A stretch of 34,290 nucleotides of DNA from a virus: the IMG/VR virus record IMGVR_UViG_3300001533_000603, positions 1-34,290 of that record. One strand, written 5' to 3'. The position numbers and the translations under genes are program-made. This document shows, piece after piece, positions 2,259 through 31,959 of the stretch; within the stretch, counting starts at the first letter, position 1, and every line of letters starts with the position of its first letter. A model generated the notes under the pieces. The model did not search any database. It was not told the DNA's origin and saw only the letters and a list, made by a program, of their open reading frames with translations.

Positions 2259-3458
2259 TTATAATGAATCCCAATACTCCTGGAACGTAAGTAAACGCAT
2301 TAGGCGAATACGGTAATCGTAGTCCTGGTAAGCCGAGGAAGCATAGCCCGTACTCATCCTGGTGTAATATGCCATCATCGATGTAGAAGCAGTCGAACTC
2401 CAATACGTTTCTTCCTCGTATTCTTCACCAACAGGCAAATTAGCTTTTGTGGTGTACAACGTATTAAATTGATCCTTTGCCGGTATAAACCAGTCGTCAT
2501 ACCCGCCTAGACTTGCCGCGTTAGCGGCGGCGGAAAAGGCGCCGATTTCCGAATCAGCATGTGCTTCCAATGCCGCGGTATTTGCCGCGCCGTCGGTGCT
2601 GCTTGTCGGGTAACCACTGTCAAAACTTGGATCACTCCAATTTATCGCCGTGCTCTCTCCACCACTCTTTGGTGCTACGATCATCAGTGTATAGTTTTTA
2701 AACGAAAGATGCACCAGTGTGCCGCCGGCGGCAGCATCACCCAGTTCAGGAAGGGGAAAATCGGTAGCCCAGTCAGGAACCGCGGTCTCGATTTCATAGG
2801 TCACGGTAAGCTGCGCACCGCCGGGAACATTAACGGGGAGGTCCAGGAGGTCATAGGACAGGAGATATTTACCAGTGTCCAACTGATAGAAGATTCCCCC
2901 TTGCCAAACAAGGCCAGCGTTGGCAACCTCTATGGCGTCCCCGGAATTGTTATTGAATATCCGTGTAATGGTCTGTGTGTGTTTCCCGGTGATTGAATCA
3001 TACGACGTAACCGGCGCTGACTGAGCCTGATAGTAAAGCTGGTCAGCATCATTACCATGAGCAACCAGGTCCTCAAGCTCATATCGGTACGCATGAAAGG
3101 CACTGGTGCCTGTACCGACCTGAATACCAAATGAATTATTGGCTCCACTGTTGTAATAACCATCCCCAGCGAAAGAAATATCCCGAACCGGAGGGTAAGA
3201 ACTTGCCGTAACACTACCACTCGTAGTAACGCCGAACCTGTTGTATGCCTCGGTTCCACCATCGCTCACGCAATCCAGCATAACGCCATTCATCAACCAC
3301 CAGGCATTACGTGTCCACGAATGTCCTTCTTCACGACGATCTTCGAGTATGATCCCGTTCCGCTCGACTGTGATACTGAGCCAGAGTCTCGGCATGCGTT
3401 TGTTTAAATTTAAATGCAGTTTCTTAAATTCCTGTTCTTCTCTCGTATTTAACGGCAT
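2259..3458 (-). CDS. Putative receptor-binding protein with C-terminal DUF1566/C-type-lectin-like domain
   Basis: This is a 399-residue protein. The N-terminal region (about 1-230) contains GHSWTRNAWWLMNG, a pattern seen in other phage tail-tip proteins, and beta-rich sequence. The C-terminal region (about 240-399) has the marks of the DUF1566 C-type-lectin-like fold: TLMIVAPKSGGES, then GGYDDWFIPAKDQFNTLY, then YWSSTAS, and a Tyr/Ser/Asp-rich stretch ending YRIRLMRLL. This fold forms receptor-binding and, in some phages, retroelement-diversified tips. The start overlaps the stop of the LamG-like gene by one base (TAATG). The exact role is inferred from fold and position next to the tail fibre. 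The codons near 2282-2400 could be a variable region, but no reverse transcriptase or template repeat was seen here. Confidence 0.7.
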   Translation of the reverse strand: MPLNTREEQEFKKLHLNLNKRMPRLWLSITVERNGIILEDRREEGHSWTRNAWWLMNGVMLDCVSDGGTEAYNRFGVTTSGSVTASSYPPVRDISFAGDGYYNSGANNSFGIQVGTGTSAFHAYRYELEDLVAHGNDADQLYYQAQSAPVTSYDSITGKHTQTITRIFNNNSGDAIEVANAGLVWQGGIFYQLDTGKYLLSYDLLDLPVNVPGGAQLTVTYEIETAVPDWATDFPLPELGDAAAGGTLVHLSFKNYTLMIVAPKSGGESTAINWSDPSFDSGYPTSSTDGAANTAALEAHADSEIGAFSAAANAASLGGYDDWFIPAKDQFNTLYTTKANLPVGEEYEEETYWSSTASTSMMAYYTRMSTGYASSAYQDYDYRIRLMRLLTFQEYWDSL

Positions 3459-4606
3459 TATGTTCCTCCTTCTATTTCGTTGTCCGGAAGGCTCCCCTCA
3501 AGCCCCCATTTATGAGCAAGGTAGCCTTCAATTTTTTCATAATCATCAAAGGCAACAATAATCTCCGAGATAGCCCCTTCCCAATAGTTCGAAGATAGAG
3601 CCGATTGATACCCAATTTTATAAGTTCCGTCGGAAGTAATGGCGGCTATAGTCCCTGCAAACTCCCCTCCACTAAGCAGACTTGCGTTTTTTTCAATCCT
3701 TACATACGTATCTATTATCTTTTTAACCGCAAGAATACTTAGGGGCTCCCCTCCGGCAAGATCATAGGTATAATGATCCGAATGACCAGATACAGCCCCG
3801 TTTCTAAAAAAGAAATTCTGTCTGTCTGAACGAGGATAGGACGCCAAAGCAATATGGGAACCAAAATGGAACAAACCATTATAAACTACTTCAGATGGTA
3901 CTGCATCATGAGAAGCCACAACAAAAATACCAATAGATTTGTCGTGTATCCCAATCGGCTCACCTGAAAGATAATTATTACTAAACTCTATCGTTTTTAA
4001 TAGCGAATTATAAATAGGTTGCAGTGTATCAGTTAGTTGAACAGCATGATTATCATTACCGCTTTTATCATCCCATTGCTCAACATGATCCGATCCATCC
4101 AGTGTAATCGTGCTACTGTCAGACGCATCCAGCCACAGGGCAGTAGTAATGTCATCGGGAGTCCATGCTGCTATCTCCGTCCACTGATGATCATACAATC
4201 GACTACGACCCGAAAAAAGCAGGTGCCCCTTCTGATTAAGGTCGTACCCGAAGAATCTGTCTCGCAACCGCTTCATTTTATGAATCCGCACGTCTGCCGT
4301 TCCCGCGAACGCCTTCACCGTTGCCTCGTTCTGCAAGAGGAACCCCGGCACCACCGGCACAAGCCCTTCCTTCGAGGGAATCTCTATAATGATATTGTTT
4401 TCCGTATTAGCGTCCCCAAATTCAACGGTCAATGTCACTGCCTCGGTATGATTGTTCTGCGCCCAGAGCCAGACTTCATCAAACGTCCCTGCTGTAGTTC
4501 CGGCGACAGCGGTATGGATTGCCGTTCCTGGCGTTGCTGTAGCGGCAACCTCAATCCCTTTCCCGTCGGTGCTTCCTGATAATTTCCTCTTCACTGCTAC
4601 TGACAT
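3458..4606 (-). CDS. Tail-associated protein with LamG/concanavalin-A-like lectin domain
   Basis: This is a 382-residue protein. Residues about 1-115 form a beta-rich domain that resembles head- or tail-decoration modules (TPGTAIHTAVAG, DEVWLWAQNN, KEGLVPVVPGF). Residues about 150-382 look like a LamG or ConA-type lectin domain: DITTALWLDASD, VEQWDDKSGNDNHA, then YWEGAISEIIVAF and a closing YLAHKWGL, a common end in surface proteins of this fold. It probably binds glycans or contributes to adsorption. The start has GGAGG upstream and a 11-bp gap from the fibre gene stop. It overlaps the next gene by one base. The gene is somewhat AT-richer in its lectin part than its neighbours, which could reflect recent exchange. 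Confidence 0.7.
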   Translation of the reverse strand: MSVAVKRKLSGSTDGKGIEVAATATPGTAIHTAVAGTTAGTFDEVWLWAQNNHTEAVTLTVEFGDANTENNIIIEIPSKEGLVPVVPGFLLQNEATVKAFAGTADVRIHKMKRLRDRFFGYDLNQKGHLLFSGRSRLYDHQWTEIAAWTPDDITTALWLDASDSSTITLDGSDHVEQWDDKSGNDNHAVQLTDTLQPIYNSLLKTIEFSNNYLSGEPIGIHDKSIGIFVVASHDAVPSEVVYNGLFHFGSHIALASYPRSDRQNFFFRNGAVSGHSDHYTYDLAGGEPLSILAVKKIIDTYVRIEKNASLLSGGEFAGTIAAITSDGTYKIGYQSALSSNYWEGAISEIIVAFDDYEKIEGYLAHKWGLEGSLPDNEIEGGT

Positions 4607-8368: not shown

Positions 8369-11300
8369 TTATTCCCCCATTTGTTCAAGTTCGTCATATA
8401 TGGCGTTCCCCTGTTGAGCCACCGCCACCATCTGCATAATCAACTGGTCGATCATTGCCCGCTTTTCATCGCCCGTCATGCTCGGAGCGATATATATAGC
8501 GTCAATCATGTCCCGGATATTTGCCAGAGAATCGGCGTATTTGTTCAGGCGAACGAGACTGCCTTCCATCATCAGTCCCATTGCCTTGTCATAATCATGT
8601 TCCTCAGAGATGAGATATTTCGCTGTGTTTTGCACTTTCTCTATCTTTTCATAATTGTCGTAAAAATCCCGGATGCTTTCCGCGTTCGTCGAAGGGTATC
8701 GGACCACAAAGGCACGGAATATCGGCCAATCGGCAAGGTGCCGCGTCGGTTCCTCATAGTCCTCTTCTTTAACTACTCCGGTTTTCCTCAGAACATGATC
8801 TATAAATCCCAGCGCATACTGACCTGAACCGCCCGTCCAACTGCGAACGACGTTTTCAACCATTGCAGGTGATGTCGGCGTTGCATCGGGCAGGATCGGG
8901 ATTTTCGAGAGATACTTCCCCAGGATTTTTGCCGTTTCCGTGGTGTACCGCTTATACTGGTATTCCGGCAGGATGTTTTCCATCGACTTCGGGAGGATGG
9001 GCCGGTCGAGGAACATTGACTTATTCGCCCAATTCTCGATCCATGGTGCCGCCGCCGTCGGTACAATACCAGGGGCCGCCCCGCGCCATATCGCGCCGAG
9101 AAGATCATCAAAGGCATGCGGGTCTTGCTCGCACAGATATTCAGTGATCCGCTCCGGGACTGTCCCGAAAAGAATTCCCAATTCAAACGGTTTCGGGATA
9201 TAATAGATATTATTATCGGTGAGCACTATCCAGAACAGGTCTTTCTTCCACTGCTCGATTTCTCCCCACCGCGGATCGTCTCGTTGTGACAGTGTCAACA
9301 AAACCGAAGGAAGTGTAATCGCCGTCAAGGTTCTGAGGCTGGTACGTACAGGATTATCCTTGAACGCCCGTACCATCCGGTCGGTCCCGTTAATCTGCGC
9401 CTGGAAAAAGGCAATCATCATATTGACCGCCTTTGTTTTTGCTCCCTTTTTCGCGAAATCAAGCGTCACCTCGCGGGAAGAGAACGCCGCCCGCTGTGCC
9501 GCCGCCTTTGCGTCGCCCGTCGCCGCCATTTCCTTTTTGACCCCTCGTTCAAATTCGCCCAGGCGCGACCCCGATTCTGCAATTTCAGACAAAACCCGAA
9601 CGGCTTCCAGTGGATGTTTAATGACGTTCTTCACTTGATATTTTTGTATCAAGTCGCCGAGACTATCCTTCAGGTATTGCCGATCCATTGAAACGAGCAT
9701 GGAGTGTTCCCCCCCGGCCTTACGCCACGTCCAGTAAAGATCGTCACGTTTCACCAGGTGGAACATCCCGCGCACGGTATCGACGACAGGCAAAAAGCCA
9801 TAATTCGAGTACACAAAAGCCGTCAAGGTGTCGCGCTCGAGATTCCGAATAATAAAATCTGGCGTCGTCGTCGCCCCGATCCTGAGCCATGACGCCGGGA
9901 CAGCGAGGAACCGGACCAGGGCACTTGTCATTTCTTCATCAAGCGCCTGGAATGTCCGGGCGATATCTTCATGCACTTCGTATAATTGTCGCTTCCCATC
10001 CCGCCATACGGTGATAACATTATCGCGCGGCACGAAAGCCGACGGCTGAAAGATTGCAACCATACTATTCAATACCCGTAAATCTTCCGGTTTCAGCCCG
10101 GCGGCCTCGATCATTGACTTAATGCCTTCTATCCCCTGTTCAGACATAAATTTCGGGTCGTTCATCTTTTTCAGGATTTCAGAGACCGTTTTCCCGTGTG
10201 CAATCATGTCATCAAGAAGAACCTGGAACTCTATCGCCTTATCACTCGGTAACAATTCCAGGGATTTCTTGATCTGCTGAAGTGCTTCAACGGCGGGCAT
10301 TTTTGCCGCATGTATCGGCGTCGGAATCTTGAAAACCCACTTTCCAAGACCTTCTTTCGCCCCCGCGAGCCGTGTCAACGCTTGACCGCAGGCGTTTTTC
10401 TCGGCCAGGTTGATATACAGGTACGTGTTTTTTACAATGGATTCGAGCGGATCAATAATTTCACGCTCAGATCCCTTAATGCTTTTAATCGGGTTCCGGG
10501 CTTCAAACCCCCGCCCTGTTCCCGGCCGGCGCATCCCCACTTCTTCAGGTTCAAAGACACGGTACAGCGGAACGTAATCTTGATTCAGCTTACGGATATG
10601 AGTGAGCATTTTATCACTCACAACGCCGCTGTCGCGCAGATAGGCCAACACATGATCCTGGTATTCCTTCAATTCTTCAAATGCCTGGCCGAAATCCTTG
10701 TCATACCGCGCGACGACCCGTTCCATTCGTTCCTTGTTGAGACCAATGTTCTTCTTTCGCTCAAATAATTCGAGTCCCCGTTTTGACACGATGTACGCTC
10801 GAAATTCATCAAGGCGGTCCCCCAGGGGTTTAAGAATATCTTGCAGGGATTTCCCCACATCCTCGTATGTACGAAACTTGAACGGTGAATGTCGAAGAAA
10901 CGCAGCGGGCTTGCCGTGCCACCCGCGCACAAGGCGTTGTAACTGGTAAGGATCGCGTTCCGTGGGAAGTTTCTCGCCCCGCATCATCTCTTTTACCGCT
11001 TTTTTCATGGGGTAAAGATCATCCACGCACGCGGTATAAAAATCCGTCCAGGTGGTTTTACGATCCCCGGTCTGGTCCGTGGATATCTGCCCCACCACCG
11101 CCTTCAGATCGTCCTGCTCCAGGTATCGCTTATACATCCGGCGCGCCTCAAGAAAAATGCTCTTGACTTCGGGCGCTTTCAGATTAAGCAATTCTTCAAA
11201 ATGGTCGTAAAAACGAGGGGCGGCCTTCCGCGCCTGTTCCGGTGCCGTAACATACATGCGAACAAACTCGGCAAAGCCTTCCGGTAACGGTGATTGTCCG

Positions 11301-14300
11301 GGCCGTGGTTGCGAGGCAATAGGGGTAAGTTCATCGGCGAATTGTTGCAGTGGTTTCGCGGGAAGGCCGCCCCGTGTACGTCCCCACAGGTACTTATGCA
11401 AAGCATGGCCGGCTTCGTGGCAAATCGTCGGCACATCGTTGGCCGACCGGGACCGGATCATTTCTTGTTCGATATAAAACAATCCCAGGGCGCTCCGGTC
11501 TCTATATCGGCCGGTCCTGATGGGAATTTCCAACTTCTCTCGCAGGAATTGAACAATCTCACGCCGGCCCATCGGCTCGCCCCTATCAGCCCCTTCTCCG
11601 GCAGGCTCAGTCTTTTCGGTGGTTCCCTTATATCCCTTTTGCGGTCTGAACCCCATTGCCGCACCTTCTTCCGAAGGTTCTTTCTCTGCTGGTTCTTTCC
11701 CTGCGGATTCTTTCTCGGGGGTTCCGAACAATGTTGATACATCTTTCTCTGTCAGGTGTCTTAAATCCTTGTTTTCTGCCAGAACTTCCCTCGCACGATT
11801 CACAACAAAATTGCGCGCCTCTTTAGGAATGGCACTGTCCGTCAACATTGCAACCACGCCGACCACTTTCCCGTCGGGATTCTCGAAAGCCACCATTTGC
11901 TTTTCATTGTGACCCGAAGCATCTATCAACGGCCGAGCCTTCGGGTACTCGGTCAGGATCACATCGACATAGCGAGCATCCAAAAACACACTCCGCCCTG
12001 TCTCGCTCACAACATGCGCAACGACTGTATCTATTGTACCTGCATGATACTCTGCGGCCAGGAACGCCGGTTCTGCACGATCCGGCACGAAGTCTTTCAT
12101 TGTTTGGGGCGGCGCCTTGTCTCCTTCAAGGAGGTCTGCTATCTTGAGCCTGGATTTCGATATCTTCACGATGTAATGACCGGTTGTGAAAGACCCATCT
12201 TTCAGATAATAATTATGTTCCTCTTCAATAATTTCCTGCTGCCGGGGCCGAAATTCATTGTAATACTGAACATCTTCGCCCGTAATGCGTTTCCCGGTGG
12301 GTTTCTGGCGGGGGGGCGCATGTTTCCCCGGCTTTGGTTTTTCAACTGTAGGGTATTTCCGCAGGGCTTTCCGAAATTCCTTCAGGCTTTCTTTGTTGAA
12401 TTTAACGGTATAGCTCCCATCATGCGGCACATGAAAGACAATAAACTCCTTGCCTTCCTCAAGGGCATCCGTTTTTCCCAGGTCCGAAGGGGCTTTTTTA
12501 AGCTCTTCGTCAACTTTGGCAATCAGGTACTTTTTTTGATCTATCAGCTTACGCGCATCTTCTGTCGGATGAACAATTTTATACTTCTTGTCGCGTTCAG
12601 ATAATTCCTTGTATAGCGCCGGATATTTTTCGCGGAAATAATCGGCAAAACCATACGGTATTTTCTCAATATATCCCGTATGTTCTTTTAAGAACGCTCC
12701 CATGTTGGATACGGCATCTTTGCCGTTGGCGCGGATTCGCCCAATTAACCCATAAAACTCTCCCTCGTCATACTGTTTGAGTATCCTGTCAGCCCACTCA
12801 CTGCCACGATATTCTTCTAAGACATGGCGAGGAACCTGTTCCGACCAAGCAGCCCAGCTCACTTCTTCCCCGTGCTTCCTCTTCCAGTAATCAATAGCTC
12901 CCTGGGTAGGTTGTTCCCCCTTTGTCATTTCGGCGATATATTCTGCCGAGGTCATTAACCAGGGAGTATCTTTGAGCTGCGGGGCCCCCCGTGGTTTATC
13001 AATCGTCACCACCCGCGCATTAACCCCGGTTTGCCTGAAGGCTTCAGCCCCCGTGAACGCCCCTTCCGGCAACTGTTCACTTTCACCGCCGACTTCCTCC
13101 AGCCATTGCCGGAACGCCGTCGCCTTTTTGTCGTTCCTGAAGAACGAACCTTCGCTCATGATGGCAACAAGACGACCGCCCGGATTCAAAAGGTCATACG
13201 CATGTTGTACATGGGCGATATCTTGAGACTTTTCAAACGGTGGATTCATTATAATCTTGTCATACTTCCCCGTTTCCTCAAGAAAATCTCCCTGTTTAAC
13301 GCTGTACCCCTTTTCTTCGAGAAGCGCCGATAGCGTTGTATTTATTTCCAGAACATCGGGTTCGTGTCCACGAGCACGAATGGAATCAGCTATATCACCC
13401 TTCCCCGCCGACGGTTCAAGGACTCGTTCACCTTCCTGAATATCTGCCTTCCCGACAATCTGTTCGGCTACTTTCTTCGGTGTCGGGAAAAAGCCCGGTA
13501 TTTTTGTTCCAATCAGTTCCCGTTCAAGCTCCTGGCGCCGTTTCGCCTGCAATTCTTCTTCCGTCGGCGGCCTGATATACCGTTCGCACTCAGCCCTAAC
13601 CGCATCAAGACTCGCCTGGTCAGTGATATTGAGCCGTTTTGCCCTTTTCTCGTCGAGATGACTTCTAGTAAGAACGGCTTCAACGTCCGCTTTGCTTTTC
13701 AGCCCCGTCAAGATACCCGGGAGCGTACCTGCTTCAATGTCGTCTGCCATGCCGCGAAGCACAGTCTGGACTTTCTTCATCCGTTCCCCATCCTGCCGCA
13801 TACCCTCTATTATGCGCGCCCGGCGCGGCGTCGGGTTTTGGTCGGCCGTAGCAGGATGAAGTTTGTTGTCAATCTGCGGTTGCATCTTGTCGGCGAGTTC
13901 CCGGAATTTCCCCGCCTGCTTTGTTCCGGCTGTTGGACTGGCGGGTTTTTCGGGGGCAGCGGGCTTTTCAGGAGTAGCGGGTTCTGTCTTAACCGCGTCG
14001 GATTCTCGTGTTAAGTCTTTATCCCGTGCATCGGTTGAAAGGTCGGCTTCTAAGCGTTCCGCCTCCGCTTCCGTATTTTTCAGGGCTTCCCTGAACTCCG
14101 GTTCGGGCATCGTGAATCGCCCTTCATCGGATTCCCGCATTATCTTGAGACGTGCCTGATTGATTGCCTTTCCAAATTCTTCTACATCCAGGTTATCGCG
14201 GATATAAACGGCTCCGGTGTCCTTGTCGTACAGCGTCAATTTCCCTTCCGGCAGGGCATTGGTCTTGAACACCTTCTTTCCCTGAACCTTCGTAAAGGTT

Positions 14301-15898
14301 TCCGCGTCATTCGTGGCAAGGTCTTTATATTCGGCATAATGGGCCTCGCGCGGCTTTTGCACCCCGGATATATCAGGGAACAGGTCTTGATATTCCTCAA
14401 TACTGCGTTGCTCTTTTATAATGCTTCGTTCTCGCGTGTTTGTTTCCAGCTTGATCCGCTCGTACAAATCATTCAGCCCGATCCGGCCGCCACGGGAAGA
14501 GGCACTATAAATCATGCCTGTTCCGAACCCCATTGCGATCTCCTGGGGCGTCCCCCCCTCTTTGGCCGACTGGAGACCGAATATACTCCCCATAACCGGT
14601 GCCCGCAGATATTGTTTCAATCCGTGAATCGAGCGAAAGACAAGCCCCAGGGCACCACGTTCAGCCGCCGCCATGAGCGAACCGATAAGGACATTGCCGC
14701 CCTGCTTGTGCGCTTCCGCAGCTCCCAACAAACCATAATAAGGAATGTTCAGCATAAATTCAGAGATACCCGGAACCGCACCGCCTATGGCGCTTCCGAA
14801 AAGCTCTTCCAGGAAGGTTGCCCCTACTTCATTCGCCCGTTTCTGCCAATACACCGTATTTTCTTCGTATGTTTTCGCACATTTTTCAAAGAACCCCCCT
14901 GCTGGAACCCCGGTTTCGGCTTCAATCATATCGGCAATTACATCAAGGTGTGTTGCGAAACCGGCCATTCCTGCGTTGAGTGCCATTGAAGCAGAAAAAC
15001 CAACAGCCTGAAACGGCTGCACCCAGGGAGCCAGCACAGGAACCAGAGCATCGGCAGCCTCTTCTGATTCCTCAAGACCGGCAAGCGGCGCACCAGACAA
15101 GAGATTGATAGTATCCGGGAACCCGGTAGACAGATCCGGCTTTTTGTCCAGATAAGGATAATCGTCAAGAAGGACGCCGGATAAGAGGTTGATATCGTCA
15201 GGCAAATGCGACGTTTGTTCTATGGTTGCCCGTATGTCGTGTGCTGCGGCTTCGGATGGTTCGACTTCGCCTGTCAGATGAGACAATTCATCAATGGACG
15301 AAACCGATCCCTCTACATTGTGCTGCATCCGCCTGAGACCGGCCTGTATAATGCCAATGATATTCTCTTCGGCTTCGGCATCACCCCGTAATTCGCGGGG
15401 CGCACCACCCAATATATCGGTTGAAACAGGCAATTCCCCCCACTGTTCAAGTGTGCGGGAACGTGTGATTTTATCCATGTGCTTCCGGCGCATCCGTTCG
15501 TATGCCGCCTTCCGCTTCATCATCGTGAGGTTAAACCGGGTTTCTTCGTCAATCCTTGGTTCTACAGGAGAAGCTTCCGGCCCCCCTCCGCCTTCCGGTG
15601 CCTCTTCGTACAGAGGGAACCCCGCAAGCGTATCAAGTTCCTCAAGCGATGCGGCGCGTAAATCCCGGCTCTTGAACCGGTCCATAATATCGCGGGCCAC
15701 ATCGCCATACGTCGCATCGTCATATTCACCAGTATCAACGCCAGAAAGAAGCGTGACATCCTCGGGCAATTTTTCTTTTTCTGTCAGCTTCGACGGCGAG
15801 ACCGGTATGCCCGACAAATCAAGACGCTCTGCAATAGCAGCCGGATCATACGGCAGGTCTGCCAGATTCAGCCTTTGCTTAATCTCTTCAAGATTCAT
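8369..15898 (-). CDS. Giant polyvalent internal virion/ejection protein with N6-MTase-like and metallopeptidase-like domains
   Basis: This protein has 2509 residues. (a) An N-terminal disordered part with three LPDDINLLSGV-like repeats (44-54, about 232-242, 260-270). (b) A hydrophobic helical region, about 288-470. (c) A Pro/Ala/Glu linker, about 632-660. (d) A methyltransferase-like domain, about 790-985, with SAM motif LEPSAGKGD (827-835) and catalytic NPPF (885-888), as in adenine-N6 enzymes. (e) Middle domains of unknown type, about 1000-1370, then a charged linker. (f) A zinc-peptidase motif HEAGH (1494-1498) with PEGFAE (1539-1544) as possible third ligand. (g) A long C-terminal region, about 1600-2400, resembling large polyvalent-protein-associated domains (possibly LPD38). 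Known polyvalent proteins are injected with phage DNA and counter host defences. The position after gp14- and gp15-like genes matches T7 gp16. Start overlaps the previous stop (ATGA). Confidence 0.85.
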   Translation of the reverse strand: MNLEEIKQRLNLADLPYDPAAIAERLDLSGIPVSPSKLTEKEKLPEDVTLLSGVDTGEYDDATYGDVARDIMDRFKSRDLRAASLEELDTLAGFPLYEEAPEGGGGPEASPVEPRIDEETRFNLTMMKRKAAYERMRRKHMDKITRSRTLEQWGELPVSTDILGGAPRELRGDAEAEENIIGIIQAGLRRMQHNVEGSVSSIDELSHLTGEVEPSEAAAHDIRATIEQTSHLPDDINLLSGVLLDDYPYLDKKPDLSTGFPDTINLLSGAPLAGLEESEEAADALVPVLAPWVQPFQAVGFSASMALNAGMAGFATHLDVIADMIEAETGVPAGGFFEKCAKTYEENTVYWQKRANEVGATFLEELFGSAIGGAVPGISEFMLNIPYYGLLGAAEAHKQGGNVLIGSLMAAAERGALGLVFRSIHGLKQYLRAPVMGSIFGLQSAKEGGTPQEIAMGFGTGMIYSASSRGGRIGLNDLYERIKLETNTRERSIIKEQRSIEEYQDLFPDISGVQKPREAHYAEYKDLATNDAETFTKVQGKKVFKTNALPEGKLTLYDKDTGAVYIRDNLDVEEFGKAINQARLKIMRESDEGRFTMPEPEFREALKNTEAEAERLEADLSTDARDKDLTRESDAVKTEPATPEKPAAPEKPASPTAGTKQAGKFRELADKMQPQIDNKLHPATADQNPTPRRARIIEGMRQDGERMKKVQTVLRGMADDIEAGTLPGILTGLKSKADVEAVLTRSHLDEKRAKRLNITDQASLDAVRAECERYIRPPTEEELQAKRRQELERELIGTKIPGFFPTPKKVAEQIVGKADIQEGERVLEPSAGKGDIADSIRARGHEPDVLEINTTLSALLEEKGYSVKQGDFLEETGKYDKIIMNPPFEKSQDIAHVQHAYDLLNPGGRLVAIMSEGSFFRNDKKATAFRQWLEEVGGESEQLPEGAFTGAEAFRQTGVNARVVTIDKPRGAPQLKDTPWLMTSAEYIAEMTKGEQPTQGAIDYWKRKHGEEVSWAAWSEQVPRHVLEEYRGSEWADRILKQYDEGEFYGLIGRIRANGKDAVSNMGAFLKEHTGYIEKIPYGFADYFREKYPALYKELSERDKKYKIVHPTEDARKLIDQKKYLIAKVDEELKKAPSDLGKTDALEEGKEFIVFHVPHDGSYTVKFNKESLKEFRKALRKYPTVEKPKPGKHAPPRQKPTGKRITGEDVQYYNEFRPRQQEIIEEEHNYYLKDGSFTTGHYIVKISKSRLKIADLLEGDKAPPQTMKDFVPDRAEPAFLAAEYHAGTIDTVVAHVVSETGRSVFLDARYVDVILTEYPKARPLIDASGHNEKQMVAFENPDGKVVGVVAMLTDSAIPKEARNFVVNRAREVLAENKDLRHLTEKDVSTLFGTPEKESAGKEPAEKEPSEEGAAMGFRPQKGYKGTTEKTEPAGEGADRGEPMGRREIVQFLREKLEIPIRTGRYRDRSALGLFYIEQEMIRSRSANDVPTICHEAGHALHKYLWGRTRGGLPAKPLQQFADELTPIASQPRPGQSPLPEGFAEFVRMYVTAPEQARKAAPRFYDHFEELLNLKAPEVKSIFLEARRMYKRYLEQDDLKAVVGQISTDQTGDRKTTWTDFYTACVDDLYPMKKAVKEMMRGEKLPTERDPYQLQRLVRGWHGKPAAFLRHSPFKFRTYEDVGKSLQDILKPLGDRLDEFRAYIVSKRGLELFERKKNIGLNKERMERVVARYDKDFGQAFEELKEYQDHVLAYLRDSGVVSDKMLTHIRKLNQDYVPLYRVFEPEEVGMRRPGTGRGFEARNPIKSIKGSEREIIDPLESIVKNTYLYINLAEKNACGQALTRLAGAKEGLGKWVFKIPTPIHAAKMPAVEALQQIKKSLELLPSDKAIEFQVLLDDMIAHGKTVSEILKKMNDPKFMSEQGIEGIKSMIEAAGLKPEDLRVLNSMVAIFQPSAFVPRDNVITVWRDGKRQLYEVHEDIARTFQALDEEMTSALVRFLAVPASWLRIGATTTPDFIIRNLERDTLTAFVYSNYGFLPVVDTVRGMFHLVKRDDLYWTWRKAGGEHSMLVSMDRQYLKDSLGDLIQKYQVKNVIKHPLEAVRVLSEIAESGSRLGEFERGVKKEMAATGDAKAAAQRAAFSSREVTLDFAKKGAKTKAVNMMIAFFQAQINGTDRMVRAFKDNPVRTSLRTLTAITLPSVLLTLSQRDDPRWGEIEQWKKDLFWIVLTDNNIYYIPKPFELGILFGTVPERITEYLCEQDPHAFDDLLGAIWRGAAPGIVPTAAAPWIENWANKSMFLDRPILPKSMENILPEYQYKRYTTETAKILGKYLSKIPILPDATPTSPAMVENVVRSWTGGSGQYALGFIDHVLRKTGVVKEEDYEEPTRHLADWPIFRAFVVRYPSTNAESIRDFYDNYEKIEKVQNTAKYLISEEHDYDKAMGLMMEGSLVRLNKYADSLANIRDMIDAIYIAPSMTGDEKRAMIDQLIMQMVAVAQQGNAIYDELEQMGE

Positions 15899-17430
15899 TC
15901 TTCCACCGTTATCTCGCCGATATCTCCCAGGTTCTTTAGTTGTTCAACGACAATGTTGATGGTTTTCTCGTTAATCAGTAACCCCTCAGAACGTAGGACT
16001 TCTTCCGCCACCTTGCGGTATCGCTCGTTTTGTTCCGCCTCCCGTTCCTTATTTTCTCGTATCCTTCTGAGACCTTCTGTTTCTTCCTTTAATTTTTCAT
16101 TCTGTCGCCTGATTTTTTCGGCCATTGATGGTGTATAAAGAGGCGCGATTTCCATTGCGGTACGGACAATCTCGTTCCCGTCAAGCGGCTTCCCCTGTTT
16201 TTCTGCTTGTTCTATGCGGCGGTCCAGTTCCAGTGTTGCCAGCATTAAGTCGTTTGCCTCTTCCGAGCTTTCACCCGCAAACATGCTTCGGCGCGGCTGT
16301 ATCTGTGATTTCAGATAATCCACCCCACGCTTGTAATACGGGTCTTTGATAATCCTGCCATCGCCTTTCCCCCGCGCAGTGTCGAGGTGCCCCACCAGCG
16401 TATTAAAGTCTGTCTTGGTCAAGTAATTTAACGAATAGGATTCTTTGATTTCCTGGAGTATGTCATGCGGTTCCTTCTCGCCTTCAAAAATATCGGTTCT
16501 ATGCTGAACATAGATATCCGGATCGGTTTCAAGTGACGTTTCTTTCTCCAGCGCGGAAAGGTAAAAGCGTCCATCTTCCAATGACAAGCTATCATTTTTA
16601 ATCGCTTCCAAAACCTCGCCGCGCGTCAAGGTGTCCTCGCCTAGCCTCGCCAGAAAATCGCGGTCTTGTGCGTCGTACCGTTTTATTTTCTCTTTATCGG
16701 CGATGCGGTCCCGGCGGGCCTGTTCGATCTCCGCGCGCCGGATCAGCTCAAAGCGCGTTTTCTCGTCGATATGCGGATACAATTCCTTATTATTGATTTC
16801 AGCTATCGCCACTTCGGGGTTTTCTATGATCCGTGCCGATGCTTGATATATCTCGCTTTGCGCCCGCCGTTTCGTTTGTTCAAGTGCCGCTTTATCGGCT
16901 GACATAATGCCGCCGGCGACCGCACCGGCAAGCAGTTCATCAATCAGCTTGACATCGCCCTGCTTCGTCGCTTCTTCGAGGTTTTCATACAGCCCCGCCT
17001 GCATGTGTTCGATTTCTTTCCGCTGAGCAAGTTTTTGGATAACGAAGGCGTGGTCCGTGGCCTTCTGGTCATACCACTCCGTAAAGGCTTCGCGGGCTTT
17101 CGGTTCCGTGATTCCTTTGAGTGTTTGTTCTTTCAACGTCGTGGCGTGCTTCCCGAATTTATCATTATACGCCTGATATTCAGGATCACGGGCGATATCG
17201 AGTTCAAACTGGTTAAAGGCTTTGCTAGCAGCGGTCTTGGCCGTTGAGTATTCATGCGCTTCGCGCGCTTCGCGCATCCGTTGGAGCATGTCCAGACCTG
17301 CCTGTGTCGCAACCTGCCCGAATTTCTGCAACCCGCCCCACTCTACACCGGCAGCCGCAACATTCCCCTGTACGCCCGGACCGTAATCGGGTAGCTTCTT
17401 GGTTGCCTGATATTGCGGTATTTTAGCCAT
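15895..17430 (-). CDS. Internal virion protein, T7 gp15-like by position
   Basis: This is a 511-residue, almost fully alpha-helical protein, rich in Glu, Lys, Arg and Ala. It opens with MAKIPQYQATKKLPDYGPG, a typical start for internal core proteins, and ends in a long charged coiled coil (about 420-480). There is no signal peptide or enzyme motif. It stands between the gp14-like gene and the giant protein, the place of T7 gp15, so it should help build the ejection tube that carries DNA across the periplasm. The stop overlaps the next start by four bases. Sequence similarity to gp15 itself was not tested; the call rests on layout and composition. Confidence 0.7.
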   Translation of the reverse strand: MAKIPQYQATKKLPDYGPGVQGNVAAAGVEWGGLQKFGQVATQAGLDMLQRMREAREAHEYSTAKTAASKAFNQFELDIARDPEYQAYNDKFGKHATTLKEQTLKGITEPKAREAFTEWYDQKATDHAFVIQKLAQRKEIEHMQAGLYENLEEATKQGDVKLIDELLAGAVAGGIMSADKAALEQTKRRAQSEIYQASARIIENPEVAIAEINNKELYPHIDEKTRFELIRRAEIEQARRDRIADKEKIKRYDAQDRDFLARLGEDTLTRGEVLEAIKNDSLSLEDGRFYLSALEKETSLETDPDIYVQHRTDIFEGEKEPHDILQEIKESYSLNYLTKTDFNTLVGHLDTARGKGDGRIIKDPYYKRGVDYLKSQIQPRRSMFAGESSEEANDLMLATLELDRRIEQAEKQGKPLDGNEIVRTAMEIAPLYTPSMAEKIRRQNEKLKEETEGLRRIRENKEREAEQNERYRKVAEEVLRSEGLLINEKTINIVVEQLKNLGDIGEITVEE

Positions 17431-17907
17431 TTACTTTTGCCTCGGCCTGTTTGTTGCCCGGCCATAATCAGCGGCACCACTCAACAGCGATGATCCCGCT
17501 TGCAAATAACCGCTCGTTTCACGTGCCTTTCCCTCCATCAGGGATAATTCAGCTTCAGACCGCGCCCGCGCCGCTTTTGTCGAACCGGTTTTCCGTATCG
17601 CCCATACATCAAGTTCTTCCTCTGCGGCCGCATCCGCCATCACCTCAAGAGGCGATCCCTCCATTGTAATGCCAGATTTCCCGTACAGCGCCATCATGCG
17701 CCCCCGAAGGCGGCGGGCCTCTTCGCGCGTCTGTAATTCCTCATGCGCCGCCGCCTCAACCGCCGCGTCAGCATTGGCCCGCGCCACCGCCGCGTTATAT
17801 TCCGCCATATCTTTTTGCGCCTGACCTTGCTGAATAGCGGAATAGGCGGTAACAGCCGTCGAAGCTGCGGTCATGGCCGCGACAACCCCCGGCGTCATGA
17901 ACGACAT
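17431..17907 (-). CDS. Internal virion protein, T7 gp14-like
   Basis: This is a 158-residue Ala-rich helical protein. A hydrophobic N-terminal stretch (PGVVAAMTAASTAVTAYSAI) is followed by QQGQAQKDMAEYNAAVARANADAA, a long helix, then RRLRGRMMALYGKSGITMEGSP, a motif common in podophage internal core proteins. The C-terminus carries GYLQAGSSLLSGAADYG. Proteins of this type are ejected first and make the outer-membrane channel for DNA entry. The start overlaps the GNAT-like gene stop by one base and its stop is followed directly by the gp15-like start. Confidence 0.75.
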   Translation of the reverse strand: MSFMTPGVVAAMTAASTAVTAYSAIQQGQAQKDMAEYNAAVARANADAAVEAAAHEELQTREEARRLRGRMMALYGKSGITMEGSPLEVMADAAAEEELDVWAIRKTGSTKAARARSEAELSLMEGKARETSGYLQAGSSLLSGAADYGRATNRPRQK

Positions 17908-18383
17908 TATGATTCCCCCTTTACAATCGCATAAATGTAATGATCCGCACCGTCCATCCCGAACTTTTTCAGTAACCCCTCACGGGCAAACCCGAGGCGT
18001 TCCGCAAATTGAATCGCCACGGCGTCATCTACCCGGACATGTGCCTGTATGCGGATCATATCCCCGCACACGTCGCGCAGGAAATCTCCTGCAATGGTAT
18101 AAGCCGCTTTCCGATAATGCTGAAACTGTTCGGTCGTCGATTTCGCGATAGCAGCCAGCGACAGCACTATCCAGGCTTCGCCCATACCCTGCCACTGCAC
18201 CCGCAGGCCGCCGCATCCCAACACTCGCCCGTCCTCGGTTTCAATAACGGCAATAGCCGGACCTTCATCGAGATATCGCGCCGCGTAATTGCGGTATGCG
18301 TCAACCGCCGTGATGCCTTTTTCCCGTGCGTCATCCCGTATCGCTATTAAGTGATCCAGCGTGCAGGGAACAGATTGCATCAT
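17907..18383 (-). CDS. GNAT-family acetyltransferase-like protein in the virion module
   Basis: This is a 158-residue protein with the GNAT fold pattern: DGRVLGCGGLRVQW (beta strands 2-3), GEAWIVLSLAA (beta 4), a helix with KAAYTIAGDFLRDV, then IQAHVRVDDAVAIQFAERLGFAREGLLKKFG, the usual acceptor-site end. The classic Q/RxxGxG/A acetyl-CoA loop is weak or missing, so catalysis is uncertain. It sits where T7 carries gp13, between the tail nozzle gene and the gp14-like gene, and similar GNAT-type genes are found at this place in other podophages. It may be a virion-assembly factor that uses the fold. Two adjacent ATG codons follow GAGGGG; I use the first. Confidence 0.7.
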   Translation of the reverse strand: MMQSVPCTLDHLIAIRDDAREKGITAVDAYRNYAARYLDEGPAIAVIETEDGRVLGCGGLRVQWQGMGEAWIVLSLAAIAKSTTEQFQHYRKAAYTIAGDFLRDVCGDMIRIQAHVRVDDAVAIQFAERLGFAREGLLKKFGMDGADHYIYAIVKGES

Positions 18384-18386
18384 ATA

Positions 18387-20795
18387 TCACCCCTCGTACG
18401 TTTCCATTCTTGGCATAATCGCCAGCACGGTGCAGGGATACGGCTTATCGTGCGTGATACAGACCTTCGCCTGCCGGTCGTACCCGCTCGGGAAAGCCAC
18501 CACTTTATCGCCGGTATACAACTCCGGAAGGGAATCCATTTCATCGCCCGTATAGGAAAAGGCGATTTCCTCTTCCAGAAGAACCTCGTTTTCGTCGTAA
18601 TATCCGACTGTCCCATGTATCGTTTCGTAAAATCGAATAATTGCCTTATGTATCCGCTTCATACGGCCCTGTGCGGTTCCCTGCTGTGCCCCTGATTCAA
18701 GGTCAATCGTCTGAAGTGTCGCGGTATAAGGCAGGCCAATCACGACGATATGAGCATATTCATCAATCGTAATTTCATTGTTTGAAACTTCATAATCGTC
18801 CCGGTAATACCCATCACCCAACACGGACACGGTACGTAATTCAAGATGATCCAGTCCCGAGAAGGTCTTTGCCACTTGATAGACATGCCCGCCCGACGTA
18901 TATGCCTCGACCGCCGATCCATCGGCAGGCGATTCTTCCAACGTGTACAGCTCAAACGTGTCCTCCGCCGGATTTTTCACAATAAAACATTGCTGATTAA
19001 GCGAATCGCCTTCACCGTCGCCGACAACATCCTCAAAACGCACGACCATATCTGCGGTAAAATCATGCCCGACCGCCGTGACCACAATAGGCGTGGCGTT
19101 GGTGTAGGATGTCAGGACATTGCTTTCTCCTTCCCATGTTAAGGCTGAATCCAGAAACACATATTCCTCGCCCGAGTCCGGCAAATCCCGCGACGCAAAG
19201 TATTCAATGTACCGTTCAGATGTGTATGTTCCGGTTTTCCGGCGGACAGAAACATATACCTCCGTTTCGTTCTCACCGGGAATAGTGGCAATACTTTCAA
19301 CAAGATCGTCGCCGCTCCCGGTGATGTGCCGATGCCAGCCAACAACGTCCTGCTCCCGTAAATAAGTCATCCCGAGCAGTTCACCATCGTTCGTAACCGC
19401 CCACAAAATCGAATCCGGGTCTTGCTGATAGGATACTTCAGTAATTCCGGCGTGTGCGATATGCTCAGCGAGCAGCGTCATGTCAGGGGATACATAGGCG
19501 TCCTTTTCAAAGTTATATGCCATTTCAAGTACTTTTCTCGTTGATCGTTGCACAAACAACACACATTCGTTTATAAGTAACGCCTGTATATTCGCCGATC
19601 CGTGCGTTGACTGCCGCTTACACAAAACATCCGTCGGCGTGATAGGATCGCCCCCCATCGTGGCCCCGATGATCCACTCATTGCCGGTCGTACCCATCAA
19701 TAGCTTGTTCTCAGGCACCAACCACAGGACCGCGTTGACGCCGTCCGAACCAATGGTATATTCAATGGAGTCATCATCATCCGGCCCCTGCGTAAAATCC
19801 TCATACGACGCCGTTCGCGACATCCACACGGTATGAGGCCGTTCATTCGTTCCCGCCAGGACAAGACGTTCTTCAAAGATTGCAATAGCCGCCGGGTAAT
19901 GGTCGGTATAGTCGAACTGTTCTGTAAATTGCCCGCAGGAAAAATCTTTCATTTCAGCAAATACGTAATCAGGTGTTGACGACGTGAACCGTATCCCGAC
20001 TTTGCCGGTAGTCGTATCGGATCGGCAGCGAAGATTTTTCCCGAAATTCTGATAGGTGGTATTCGGCGGCGTGAAAGGCGTACCCCAATAGGTTCCCGAG
20101 CTATCCTGCAAGAAAAACCGTCCGGTTACATTCGCCCCCTTCACCTTGCATCCGATATGGTACACATACCCTTTTTTTAATTCGATATTATCAAGGCTTA
20201 TCTGTCCGGGACTGGCAGACATCGTGGTAAAACTCTCCGTCCAGTCAGCGGTATCATCATTGGCCATATCATCATCAGCCACATTGCCGTAGGTCGTGCC
20301 GCCCACCTCGAACGTGACCGTCTCCAGTGTCCACGCATTATGATCCGTCCGCATGAGCTTCCGTGGCCGGTAATCGGGATGGACAATGTACATCACGTCG
20401 GCAGACTGCACATATTTCAGTTCAAACAGGTCAGTATAATTATAGGGTGTCTCAATTTCATAAATGGCGCCTGAGTCATCAAGCACCTGTCCATGATCCA
20501 TAAACACCCGCATCCGGTAATTGCTGAATTCAAGCACGTATGCTTGTTCCGTGGAAAAAATAAAAGGAATAAGCCGTATCGGAAAAGAATAATCATCTCC
20601 CGAGGATTCCCATTTACGAGCCGCCGCAATAAAATGAGTCCCCGGCCGCTTCGTCGCGCCCCCGTGAGGCATAATGATAAAATTCTCAAGAGTTTCACAG
20701 CCGTTGTAATACTTTTCCAGATCCACACGCCCGCGCAACCGTGGAGAGAATTCCCCGGCGGTGAAATTGGTTAGTATCGGTGCCGCTTTCGTCAT
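18387..20795 (-). CDS. Tail tubular protein B / nozzle (T7 gp12-like)
   Basis: This is an 802-residue protein. The opening MTKAAPILTNFTAGEFSPRL, followed by GRVDLEKYYNGCETLENF and MPHGGATKRPGTHFI, is the clear signature of podophage tail tubular protein B, also called the nozzle. The rest is beta-rich. It forms the distal tail tube and closes the DNA channel. I set the start at 20795 because it gives an ATGA overlap with the upstream gene and matches the family start; the frame stays open to 20897. It works with the gp11-like adaptor at 21382-21957, with a methyltransferase gene between the two. Confidence 0.9.
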   Translation of the reverse strand: MTKAAPILTNFTAGEFSPRLRGRVDLEKYYNGCETLENFIIMPHGGATKRPGTHFIAAARKWESSGDDYSFPIRLIPFIFSTEQAYVLEFSNYRMRVFMDHGQVLDDSGAIYEIETPYNYTDLFELKYVQSADVMYIVHPDYRPRKLMRTDHNAWTLETVTFEVGGTTYGNVADDDMANDDTADWTESFTTMSASPGQISLDNIELKKGYVYHIGCKVKGANVTGRFFLQDSSGTYWGTPFTPPNTTYQNFGKNLRCRSDTTTGKVGIRFTSSTPDYVFAEMKDFSCGQFTEQFDYTDHYPAAIAIFEERLVLAGTNERPHTVWMSRTASYEDFTQGPDDDDSIEYTIGSDGVNAVLWLVPENKLLMGTTGNEWIIGATMGGDPITPTDVLCKRQSTHGSANIQALLINECVLFVQRSTRKVLEMAYNFEKDAYVSPDMTLLAEHIAHAGITEVSYQQDPDSILWAVTNDGELLGMTYLREQDVVGWHRHITGSGDDLVESIATIPGENETEVYVSVRRKTGTYTSERYIEYFASRDLPDSGEEYVFLDSALTWEGESNVLTSYTNATPIVVTAVGHDFTADMVVRFEDVVGDGEGDSLNQQCFIVKNPAEDTFELYTLEESPADGSAVEAYTSGGHVYQVAKTFSGLDHLELRTVSVLGDGYYRDDYEVSNNEITIDEYAHIVVIGLPYTATLQTIDLESGAQQGTAQGRMKRIHKAIIRFYETIHGTVGYYDENEVLLEEEIAFSYTGDEMDSLPELYTGDKVVAFPSGYDRQAKVCITHDKPYPCTVLAIMPRMETYEG

Positions 20796-21382
20796 GGTCT
20801 CACCCGCGCGCAATAAAACTGATATGACGACCCCTTGTTTTCGGGATTTATGTCCACAACTTCCGGCCAATACCTGATAAGCATTGACGCCCACCATTCG
20901 CGGGGCTTCACGGTCAGATGCAGGGTTTCACCGATCAATCTTCCGCATCCATCAGCTACCCCGGAAATCTGGAAATAGGCCGAATATGCAAGACTCCGCA
21001 TGGCATCAAGGGCTTTCGGGATATCTTCGGTCGGTAAATGTTCCATAACATCGAAGCAATAAATGAAGTCGGCGACCGGAAGCAGCTTGCGAACACCATC
21101 AGAAAGATGTGTTATGTCCGCCCGAATGAATACGAGATCATCATTCAGCGATTTCCTGACTTCCTCATCCAGACAATTCCCGGCGATATCAAGCAAATAT
21201 ACTGTATGTCCATGATCGTATAGCCACTTCCCGGCGCGACCTGGGCCACAACCCACGTCGATAATTGTTTCTCCCCCCTTCAAAAACCGGTCCCGGAACG
21301 GCCGTACCCGTGAAAACCCCGGAGACACAACGCGGTATTCTTCGATGGAATACATTGCCTCGTATTTTTCTTGTTCAGTCAT
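20792..21382 (-). CDS. Class I SAM-dependent methyltransferase
   Basis: This is a 196-residue protein with a Rossmann-like methyltransferase core. Motif I is IIDVGCGPGRAG (40-51), followed by VYLLDIAGNCL (motif II), ADITHL, and FIYCFDVMEHLP (motif IV/post-IV). This is the small-molecule or protein type, not a DNA methyltransferase: no NPPY or PCQ motif is present. Tandem ATG codons lie at 21385 and 21382; the second has the better spacing to GAGG. It overlaps both neighbours by four bases. It sits between the two tail tube genes, where T7 has no such gene. It could modify a virion protein or a host surface molecule, but the substrate is unknown. Confidence 0.8.
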   Translation of the reverse strand: MTEQEKYEAMYSIEEYRVVSPGFSRVRPFRDRFLKGGETIIDVGCGPGRAGKWLYDHGHTVYLLDIAGNCLDEEVRKSLNDDLVFIRADITHLSDGVRKLLPVADFIYCFDVMEHLPTEDIPKALDAMRSLAYSAYFQISGVADGCGRLIGETLHLTVKPREWWASMLIRYWPEVVDINPENKGSSYQFYCARVRP

Positions 21383-21957
21383 CATATCCTCGACGTGAGC
21401 CAATCAAATTGCTGCTCGGTTTCGGCCCGCTGACTATCCTCGCGCCTGGAGGCGATCCCCCCTATACTCAGTATTTCCTGCAATTCTGAATAAATTAACT
21501 CCTTCATTTTTCGGGACTGCATAAGCGGGTATGCCAGTTTATACGCCAAGTTCAGGGCGACGGCTCGAGCGCACAACGGATCAAACTCGGTCATGTCTGT
21601 TACCCGCTTGATATACCGTAAATTGACGCTGTCCTCGTTGGTCAGCAGCACCCGTCCTTCAATAGCAAACCTGTAATGCCGGTCCTCGTTGATTTCTAGC
21701 GCCATGATGCAATACGGTTCGGAAGGAAGGGAATACTGATGGTCCCACTCGAAAGCAGGAGCATCTTCAAGTTCAGTAAGAGATTGACGTGCAATCGCAC
21801 AATTCCATTCGCTCATCCGCAAAACTTCATCCAGAGAGGCATCAAACAGCTCTTCACACAACCCTGCGGCCTTCGTCGTATCCTCCAGCGAAGAAATCAA
21901 TTTTTCGCCAAGCGTAACCAATGCCTCGTTGCAGATACTTACTTTTGTACGTGACAT
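21382..21957 (-). CDS. Tail tubular protein A / adaptor (T7 gp11-like)
   Basis: This is a 191-residue protein with the tail tubular protein A pattern: SICNEALVTLGEKLI, then AGLCEELFDASLDEVLRMSEWNCAIARQ, a middle beta part (EWDHQYSLPSEPYCIMAL) and YIKRVTDMTEFDPLCARAVALNLAYKLAYPL. It joins the portal to the nozzle and forms the upper tail tube. Length agrees with T7 gp11 (about 196 residues). It ends in an overlap with the methyltransferase gene and follows the MptE-like gene with a one-base gap. Confidence 0.88.
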   Translation of the reverse strand: MSRTKVSICNEALVTLGEKLISSLEDTTKAAGLCEELFDASLDEVLRMSEWNCAIARQSLTELEDAPAFEWDHQYSLPSEPYCIMALEINEDRHYRFAIEGRVLLTNEDSVNLRYIKRVTDMTEFDPLCARAVALNLAYKLAYPLMQSRKMKELIYSELQEILSIGGIASRREDSQRAETEQQFDWLTSRI

Positions 21958-30913: not shown

Positions 30914-31111
30914 TCATTCTCCCTCGCCTATCTCTCTTTCTAAATCATCCAAAACGAGCCGGATCAGTCTCAGAGTTAGTTCCGGCACTTTAATGGAATC
31001 TGTGTTTATAATATTTTTAATCTCTCCTAGTGCCGCATCACACAATTTTTTGCGTTTTATAAGCCCCTGCGTTACGCAGAAAGCCTCTTCTGGAGTGTCG
31101 TAGTATTCCAT
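30914..31111 (-). CDS. Small early protein, function unknown
   Basis: This is a 65-residue protein starting MEYYDTPEEAFCVTQGL, followed by helical sequence LCDAALGEIKNIIN and LRLIRLVLDDLERE. The frame stays open upstream (to 31576), but GGGAG seven bases before ATG 31111 marks a good start. It overlaps the end of the methyltransferase C-terminal frame. No family is recognised. Confidence 0.6.
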   Translation of the reverse strand: MEYYDTPEEAFCVTQGLIKRKKLCDAALGEIKNIINTDSIKVPELTLRLIRLVLDDLEREIGEGE

Positions 31112-31604
31112 GATATTCTCCCTCACTGCACTTAATGAATTCTGCCGCGACTTGCGGGACAATCGCGTTACCCGCTCCCCGCAAAATGCCCACTCGATTG
31201 GGTAGCCCATCAGCCAAAGGGAAAAGCGCGGGTTCAATTTTCCAGTTGCCGGCGGCGTCCAGCCTGGCGGGAACACGCCGCAATTTTCCATCCCGGCAAG
31301 GCCACCAGACGGCATTGTTCCAGTCAACTGCGCCGCCCTTGGCAACTGATCCAGCCTGTTGCGCGTCGTGCCGTCCGGGTTCGTGCCGGTTGTCGCCATC
31401 CCCGGCGTGTCCTTCCAATCCCGCGTTGATGCCGTCGGCCAGCCGGCCATTTGCGCCATCAGCGTCAGCGGCATTGTTGCCACCTTGCCGGCGTCGTTGC
31501 GCTTCTGCCATGATTCCTGATTCTCGTCCGTCGTCTTTCCCGTGCGCGGTGTTGCCCAGCCGACTAATTGCGCCACCGCTTCCGGGTTCGTCCCCTATTT
31601 TCAT
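31038..31604 (-). CDS. C-terminal part of the cytosine-5 DNA methyltransferase, separated by a -1 frame change
   Basis: This is a 188-residue frame. Its end carries the C-terminal signature of Dcm-like phage methyltransferases: GAVDWNNAVWWPCRDGKLRRV, FPLADGLPNRVGILRGAGNA and IVPQVAAEFI (motif X region). The first part is low-complexity (NTAHGKDDGRESGIMAEAQ), as in the variable region of these enzymes. It begins with ATG at 31604, overlapping the stop of the N-terminal part (ATGA), where the run CCAAAATGA allows a -1 slip or one-base deletion. So the enzyme may be made by frameshift, by two-subunit translation coupling, or be broken. Another frame in the same DNA also resembles methyltransferase tails. 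Confidence 0.7.
   Translation of the reverse strand: MKIGDEPGSGGAISRLGNTAHGKDDGRESGIMAEAQRRRQGGNNAADADGANGRLADGINAGLEGHAGDGDNRHEPGRHDAQQAGSVAKGGAVDWNNAVWWPCRDGKLRRVPARLDAAGNWKIEPALFPLADGLPNRVGILRGAGNAIVPQVAAEFIKCSEGEYHGILRHSRRGFLRNAGAYKTQKIV
31112..31576 (-). other. Alternate-frame methyltransferase-tail-like open frame (downstream half)
   Basis: In the frame overlapping the C-terminal methyltransferase part, this DNA codes for LVGWATPRTGKTTDENQ, LMAQMAGWPTASTRDWKD, LDQLPRAAQLTG and LNPRFSLWLMGYPIEWAFCGE, then LSRKSRQNS. These phrases (LAGWPTP, NPxFSLWLMGYPxEW, SRKSR) are a second well-known tail type of phage cytosine methyltransferases. It starts with GTG in an unbroken frame and has no clear ribosome binding site. 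The frame runs on into the small gene at 30914-31111. Confidence 0.5.
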
Positions 31605-31959
31605 TTTGGAGAATCCAGCCGGCCATCATCGCCGCCGCCTGCAAATCCCCGCCGCCGCTCGTCGTCCTGCCGAGTTCCTGCTTGCGTTCTGCGCTCTCCG
31701 CACCGCCCGTTGGTGTCCTGGGCATCGGCCATCCCGCCAGCGGTGCCTGATCCCGTAGCTTCAACTTCGGGTGCAATCCTTCCCATTGCGCCCTGATTAC
31801 ATCCATTGTCCCGCCCTCCCCGTCGCTCTGGTTCGGACTCCGCCACCCACCACAACCGCTGCCTGATGTGCGGCGACCCGATGCCCGCAGCGTTGGTATC
31901 ACACGTTTTCCCGGAGTTATGATTTCTTTCCATTGATGGTTGTATTCTGGGGACATCAT
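31564..31959 (-). other. Alternate-frame methyltransferase-tail-like open frame (upstream half)
   Basis: This is a 131-residue frame that starts directly after the HNH stop codon (TAAATGATG), with GGAG nine bases upstream, so translation is possible. It contains KLRDQAPLAGWPMPRTPTGG and LQAAAMMAGWIL, the repeated LAGWPTP pattern of the second tail type. It overlaps the methyltransferase N-terminal frame. A shift of the same sign as in that gene, near 31590, would join it to the frame at 31576. Confidence 0.45.

Follow-up and report, generated by a model that had tools for sequence, protein, structure and literature searches.

A 2509-residue phage polyvalent protein combining a probable DNA-adenine methyltransferase and a zincin fold with an LPD38 core

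What would a single chain of 2509 residues, encoded at the genome position of T7 gp16 and bearing both a methyltransferase and a zinc peptidase motif, do for the phage that carries it? The question is raised by a 34,290-nt virus sequence, IMG/VR record IMGVR_UViG_3300001533_000603, the whole of which (positions 1 to 34,290, hereafter the window) was analyzed. The original prediction placed an open reading frame of 2509 residues at 8369–15898, which is present as claimed and lies on the minus strand, the prediction having given none; its ATG start codon and the stop codon of the gene before it (15895–17430) overlap. The gene and its upstream neighbors are as follows:

8369–15898, minus strand: polyvalent, putatively ejected protein, open for 2509 codons (2509 aa)
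15895–17430, minus strand: gene in the gp15 position, 511 aa, placed by gene order
17431–17907, minus strand: gp14-like internal virion protein (phrog_418 internal virion protein, E 2e-28)
17907–18383, minus strand: GNAT-fold protein in the gp13 position (Pfam Acetyltransf_1, E 8e-5; phrog_308 internal virion protein, E 1.6e-7)
18387–20897, minus strand: tail tubular B-like protein (phrog_376 tail, E 3.5e-199)
21382–21957, minus strand: tail tubular A-like protein (phrog_394 tail, E 1.6e-47)

Along the minus strand, the head and tail part runs from terminase, portal, protease/scaffold-like and capsid genes to tail tubular A and B, and the order continues with the GNAT/gp13-like, gp14-like and gp15-position genes, the gene under study, endolysin, spanin and tail fibre. 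Because head, tail and core genes follow the T7 late order, the position of T7 gp16 is assigned to the 2509-aa gene, and the synteny agrees with the placement originally predicted, the tail tubular A and B, GNAT/gp13-like, gp14-like and gp15-position genes all coming before it. The gp15 equivalent is assigned by position only, and its 511-aa product has no tblastn match in the phage collection. Elsewhere in the window, a small class I methyltransferase gene (Methyltransf_23/25; 20792–21403, minus strand) lies between the tail tubular A and B genes and overlaps both, and two further minus-strand genes, for a C5 cytosine DNA methyltransferase (Pfam DNA_methylase, E 5e-20; 31601–33001) and for a second PHROG DNA methyltransferase match (30914–31576), adjoin the replication genes. 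An integrase is encoded on the opposite strand (705–1724, plus), which suggests that the phage is temperate. Rfam and tRNA scans of the whole window were empty. LQBH01000030.1, a contig assigned to the bin delta proteobacterium MLS_D, is 98.6–99.9% identical to the record and lacks about 0.7 kb of it (3486–4178), inside the gene at 3458–4606 near the tail-fibre genes, a difference that reflects either variation or assembly.

Within the chain, the following parts can be distinguished from the N- to the C-terminus:

13949–15898, minus strand: residues 1–650, N-terminal region without relatives in searches of phages and viral contigs
12986–13651, minus strand: residues 750–971, predicted SAM-dependent amino-methyltransferase fold (model, structure matches, profile matches)
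13478–13492, minus strand: FFPTP, residues 803–807
13397–13417, minus strand: EPSAGKG, residues 828–834
13235–13246, minus strand: NPPF, residues 885–888
11579–12961, minus strand: residues 980–1440, long low-confidence region (pLDDT mostly <60)
11168–11569, minus strand: residues 1444–1577, predicted zincin metallopeptidase fold (model, fold match, profile match)
11405–11419, minus strand: HEAGH, residues 1494–1498
11267–11281, minus strand: EGFAE, residues 1540–1544
8372–11131, minus strand: residues 1590–2509, helical core of many phage polyvalent proteins (Pfam, model, BFVD)
8783–9277, minus strand: LPD38, residues 2208–2372 (Pfam E 6e-42, score 144 against a cut-off of 27)

By domain content and gene position, this protein is a phage-type polyvalent protein: at least two unrelated domains share one chain encoded in a late gene cluster, and LPD38, found where a polyvalent-type C-terminal region had been foreseen, is a large polyvalent associated domain of the phage type only. 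The class was published in 2017, already with combinations of methyltransferase and metallopeptidase, and methylation of the entering DNA before restriction was already proposed for it (Iyer et al., 2017; PMC5512222). The class, LPD38, the pairing of an adenine methyltransferase with a zincin and the idea of an antirestriction role are all published, and VvAW1 gp1 already bears the annotation 'DarB-like antirestriction'. Of most interest here are the helicase-free branch to which the protein belongs and its canonical NPPF motif.

Regarding the methyltransferase, the model of residues 690–1440 (alignment of 59 rows) shows pLDDT values of 86–98 from residue 750 and of about 95–98 over roughly 780–960. 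Its top match by VIA-align is M.TaqI (Z 19.0, rmsd 2.3 Å over 158 residues, 27% identity); M.BseCI, CamA and type I HsdM proteins follow closely. Profile matches of residues 750–971 to TaqI reach E 3e-4, those to Pfam are weak and all to methyltransferases, with N6_Mtase above its cut-off, and those to PHROG are very strong, several of the families being named DNA methyltransferase and one reaching E 6e-89 (best stretch 699–974). Motif I precedes motif IV in a Rossmann-type fold, as in the gamma class of N6-adenine DNA methyltransferases, and the TP (FFPTP) and NPP(Y/F) motifs of EcoKI/TaqI-like methyltransferases are present. Relatives retain FFPTP, EPSAGKG and NPPF. Of 93 methyltransferase matches, 92 have NPPF/Y, a figure partly built in because NPP formed part of one of the two search patterns. 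The modeled domain thus supports an adenine amino-methyltransferase of gamma-type fold, and the NPPF and EPSAGKG motifs, read from the outset as of the adenine-N6 type, do lie in a high-confidence matching fold nearest M.TaqI.

The fold alone does not separate DNA from RNA as substrate. Indeed, the rRNA adenine methyltransferases METTL5 (Z 18.4) and KsgA (Z 18.1) tie with M.TaqI, and no target recognition domain was recognized, the region after residue 971 being poorly modeled. Both observations would suit an early host-takeover effector that methylates host RNA or protein after entry instead of phage DNA, and host-directed enzymes are numerous among polyvalent proteins (Iyer et al., 2017; PMC5512222). 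Such a role nevertheless appears quite unlikely to us, since identity is higher to M.TaqI (27%) than to KsgA and METTL5 (about 14%), FFPTP points to the TaqI/EcoKI group, counted among the DNA adenine methyltransferases by Iyer et al. (PMC5512222), and the PHROG families containing the domain are named DNA methyltransferase. A DNA-adenine methyltransferase is the probable assignment.

The metallopeptidase motifs, HEAGH with a downstream PEGFAE, had been proposed to be of the zinc peptidase type, and both are found in a confidently modeled zincin fold. The model of residues 1440–2509 (alignment of 51 rows) has a mean pLDDT of 86, exceeding 90 in most of the zincin, and residues 1444–1577 match the zincin fold of the lethal-factor/Pro-Pro endopeptidase group (Z 9.2, rmsd 3.4 Å over 126 residues). 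In a profile search (E 0.002), HExxH and EGFAE aligned with their counterparts in this group, and the metallopeptidases of polyvalent proteins have been linked to the same superfamily (Iyer et al., 2017; PMC5512222). All 18 peptidase representatives obtained by other means than the peptidase scan keep HExxH, and they include the records from which the peptidase profile was built. HExxH and the glutamate of a downstream helix are conserved in the zincin fold, a statement on the fold only. With HMM searches and structure prediction placing both motifs in matching folds, the original prediction withstands this comparison; the chance occurrence of two motifs in a structural protein was rejected, as both are conserved and in confidently modeled folds.

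As for what the zincin may cleave, its place in nearly all proteins is at the edge of the core (median offset −25 aa), as for the C1 HExxH domain of N4 gp50. Because of this adjacency, we favor processing or regulation of the chain itself over cleavage of a host protein, as Iyer et al. (PMC5512222) do for polyvalent peptidases, although the same authors report that N4 gp50 is packaged unprocessed. An effector cutting a host protein after ejection would be in line with the fold, which secreted host-directed zincins and Pro-Pro endopeptidases also have, and with the presence of the peptidase in some short proteins without recognized enzymatic cargo. This alternative, which concerns the peptidase step only, is made doubtful by the position at the core border, by the preference of Iyer et al. 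(PMC5512222) and by the longer upstream parts of proteins with the peptidase (median 890 vs 444 aa, p 0.003, 10 vs 69, a comparison that ignores descent).

The C-terminal core recurs across many phages, whether or not cargo is attached to it. Many BFVD matches to the 1440–2509 model are named 'large polyvalent protein associated domain', and others are named RelA/SpoT or LT_GEWL, that is, for other cargo. Phages of Vibrio, Bacillus, Pelagibacter, Escherichia, Shewanella and others encode proteins related to the core by sequence. Short forms of about 1200 aa, devoid of both enzymes, are frequent; those of Pelagibacter phages and of Manatee Spring phage follow gp14-like genes. Foldseek gave no credible PDB match for the core, which is not evidence of a new fold. 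LPD36, the N-terminal domain of DarB-type dyads, was absent among Pfam matches up to E 1, in a Pfam copy that may not include its model. A further phage protein (MW202898.1, 6795–10637) is named 'type I restriction enzyme methylase' and yet has no detected methyltransferase domain, its name having probably been carried over from longer relatives.

At the other end of the chain, residues 1–650 match nothing in phages or viral contigs, either in the scan or in a phage search with the region, and hydropathy indicates hydrophobic stretches at about 285–303, 367–385 and 403–421. By eye, the region seemed possibly homologous to the N-terminal part of short gp16-like proteins, an idea rejected because 69 of 490 shuffles scored equally well. 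Four copies of a motif of the form LPxDxxLLSG(V/A) lie in the first 280 residues (residues 38–277, about 15068–15787, minus strand; LLSG at 50, 162, 238 and 266), at most one copy appearing in 5000 shuffles for a motif picked after being seen; the gp14-like protein has a similar LLSG stretch, and the motif is possibly a packaging or partner-binding signal. The long linkers of the original prediction hold for about residues 980–1440, of low pLDDT.

No relative of the whole protein was found in the scan of viral contigs, and domain alignments were therefore used to follow its architecture. As the loci were fetched with profiles built in this analysis, the fractions below describe the helicase-free branch, not all polyvalent proteins, and the ORFs counted are not independent, some being near-identical or fetched twice. 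The order methyltransferase-peptidase-core holds in 31 of the 31 ORFs having all three, and the methyltransferase lies upstream of the core in all 39 having both. Iyer et al. (PMC5512222) describe fusion of the methyltransferase to a helicase in nearly all cases. Of these 39 core and methyltransferase ORFs, one has a detected DarB-type helicase, and in the other 38 none was detectable; the DarB-like helicases found mostly accompany another methyltransferase type, as in VvAW1. In the 2509-aa protein itself, we found no Pfam helicase, no GxGK(S/T) Walker A motif and no DarB-like helicase, so that the SF2/SNF2 helicase expected C-terminal to the methyltransferase in a DarB-type methylase-helicase dyad is absent. 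Unlike the near-constant fusion described by Iyer et al., the protein, judged by sequence, is thus a member of a helicase-free branch.

Among its relatives, the large proteins of phages BA3 (Thalassomonas), X14 (Shewanella) and FGH (Vibrio) present the same order of methyltransferase, zincin and gp16-like core, with a methyltransferase 48–55% identical and LPD38 confirmed in BA3. They differ by an identity of 23–25% in the peptidase-core part, by an N-terminal region without match and by a methyltransferase-to-peptidase spacing of about 77 aa vs about 490. The two closest relatives, L180 (IMG/VR 3300011118_000054) and L031 (3300031365_000163), are 47–48% identical over residues 660–969 and 43–44% over 1118–2509 (from residue 1118 on, about 43% is conserved in both), and differ in having the N-terminal part of short gp16-like proteins. 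In these two, the enzyme part is inserted between the short-gp16-like N-terminal region and the core. For the 2509-aa protein a similar insertion is a guess, because its N-terminal region has neither relatives nor a significant match to the short-gp16-like region.

How would such a chain serve infection? On balance we lean towards its being packed in the head, ejected with the genome and methylating the entering DNA. Its delivery with the DNA is indirectly supported, the analysis drawing on gene position, on a virion-annotated homologue and on the polyvalent/Dar literature. The homologue is H66 gp60, whose methyltransferase is 47–55% identical and whose record notes mass-spectrometric verification as a virion component; virions of podovirus JC1 were also found to contain gp69, a DarB-like protein that may be related to the present one. 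After ejection, the N-terminal and core parts may form the inner-membrane/cytoplasmic end of a DNA channel, as is thought for T7 gp16 and N4 gp50. The methyltransferase would be held at the cytoplasmic mouth of this channel, a placement chosen because T7 gp16 reaches the cytoplasm (PMC11784390); with SAM supplied by the host, it would modify adenines of the incoming DNA and so blunt restriction of the first genome copy, while the zincin would process or regulate the chain. Several points weigh against this proposal: the absence of a recognized target recognition domain, the equal standing of rRNA adenine methyltransferases on fold, the lack of a helicase, which Iyer et al. (PMC5512222) thought DarB-like methylation requires, the lack of significant homology to T7 gp16 or N4 gp50, and the C5 DNA methyltransferase and perhaps another of the phage, by which progeny DNA may be modified anyway.

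The separate DNA methyltransferase genes also fit a chiefly structural chain that shields DNA by binding it or building a channel, its methyltransferase acting in the producing cell or modestly, and so do the core-only versions common in related phages and the case of P1 DarB, the archetype, which has NVPF instead of NPPF and yet is reported to act in antirestriction. We judge this unlikely, the strong conservation of NPPF and of the SAM motif in the subfamily arguing for a working enzyme. Beyond methylation of the entering DNA, a wider and more tentative possibility, to which we give limited credence, is that a helicase-free virion adenine methyltransferase acts as a toll gate at the channel mouth and that the LPD38-zincin core is a shared chassis for enzyme exchange with an N4 gp50-like layout, the cargo being a methyltransferase here and RelA/SpoT or lysozyme domains in related proteins.

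Finally, the protein can be set against known systems. M.TaqI shares the methyltransferase fold, motif I before motif IV and the NPP motif, and differs in being a free-standing enzyme that carries a target recognition domain at its C-terminus. T7 gp16 shares the genome position, with no significant sequence or fold match to the 2509-aa protein, among whose Pfam matches there is no transglycosylase family. N4 gp50, the virion RNA polymerase, is similar in layout, with an N-terminal region, an enzyme, an HExxH domain and a large helical C-terminal domain (PMC12633501), and differs by an RNA polymerase where the present protein has a methyltransferase; there is no significant sequence match between the two, and no single-chain RNA polymerase family appears among the Pfam and PHROG matches. 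P1 DarB is likewise a large virion protein with an adenine methyltransferase-like domain and acts in antirestriction in P1 (PMC5512222; PMC12810830). It differs by its SNF2 helicase, lacks an HExxH motif, and matches neither the zincin profile nor, by blastp, the 2509-aa protein; it scores 22.7 bits against the methyltransferase profile, for which members score about 240–397. Its methyltransferase domain (residues about 93–271) has NVPF at motif IV vs NPPF here, and with such a non-standard motif in the archetype, conclusions on DarB should not be transferred without test. The helicase-free subfamily, simpler than P1 DarB, occurs in cultured phages of Vibrio, Shewanella, Thalassomonas and Pseudomonas, and, if its methyltransferase does act on entering DNA, it would explain how the first genome copy of such podoviruses is protected before gene expression.
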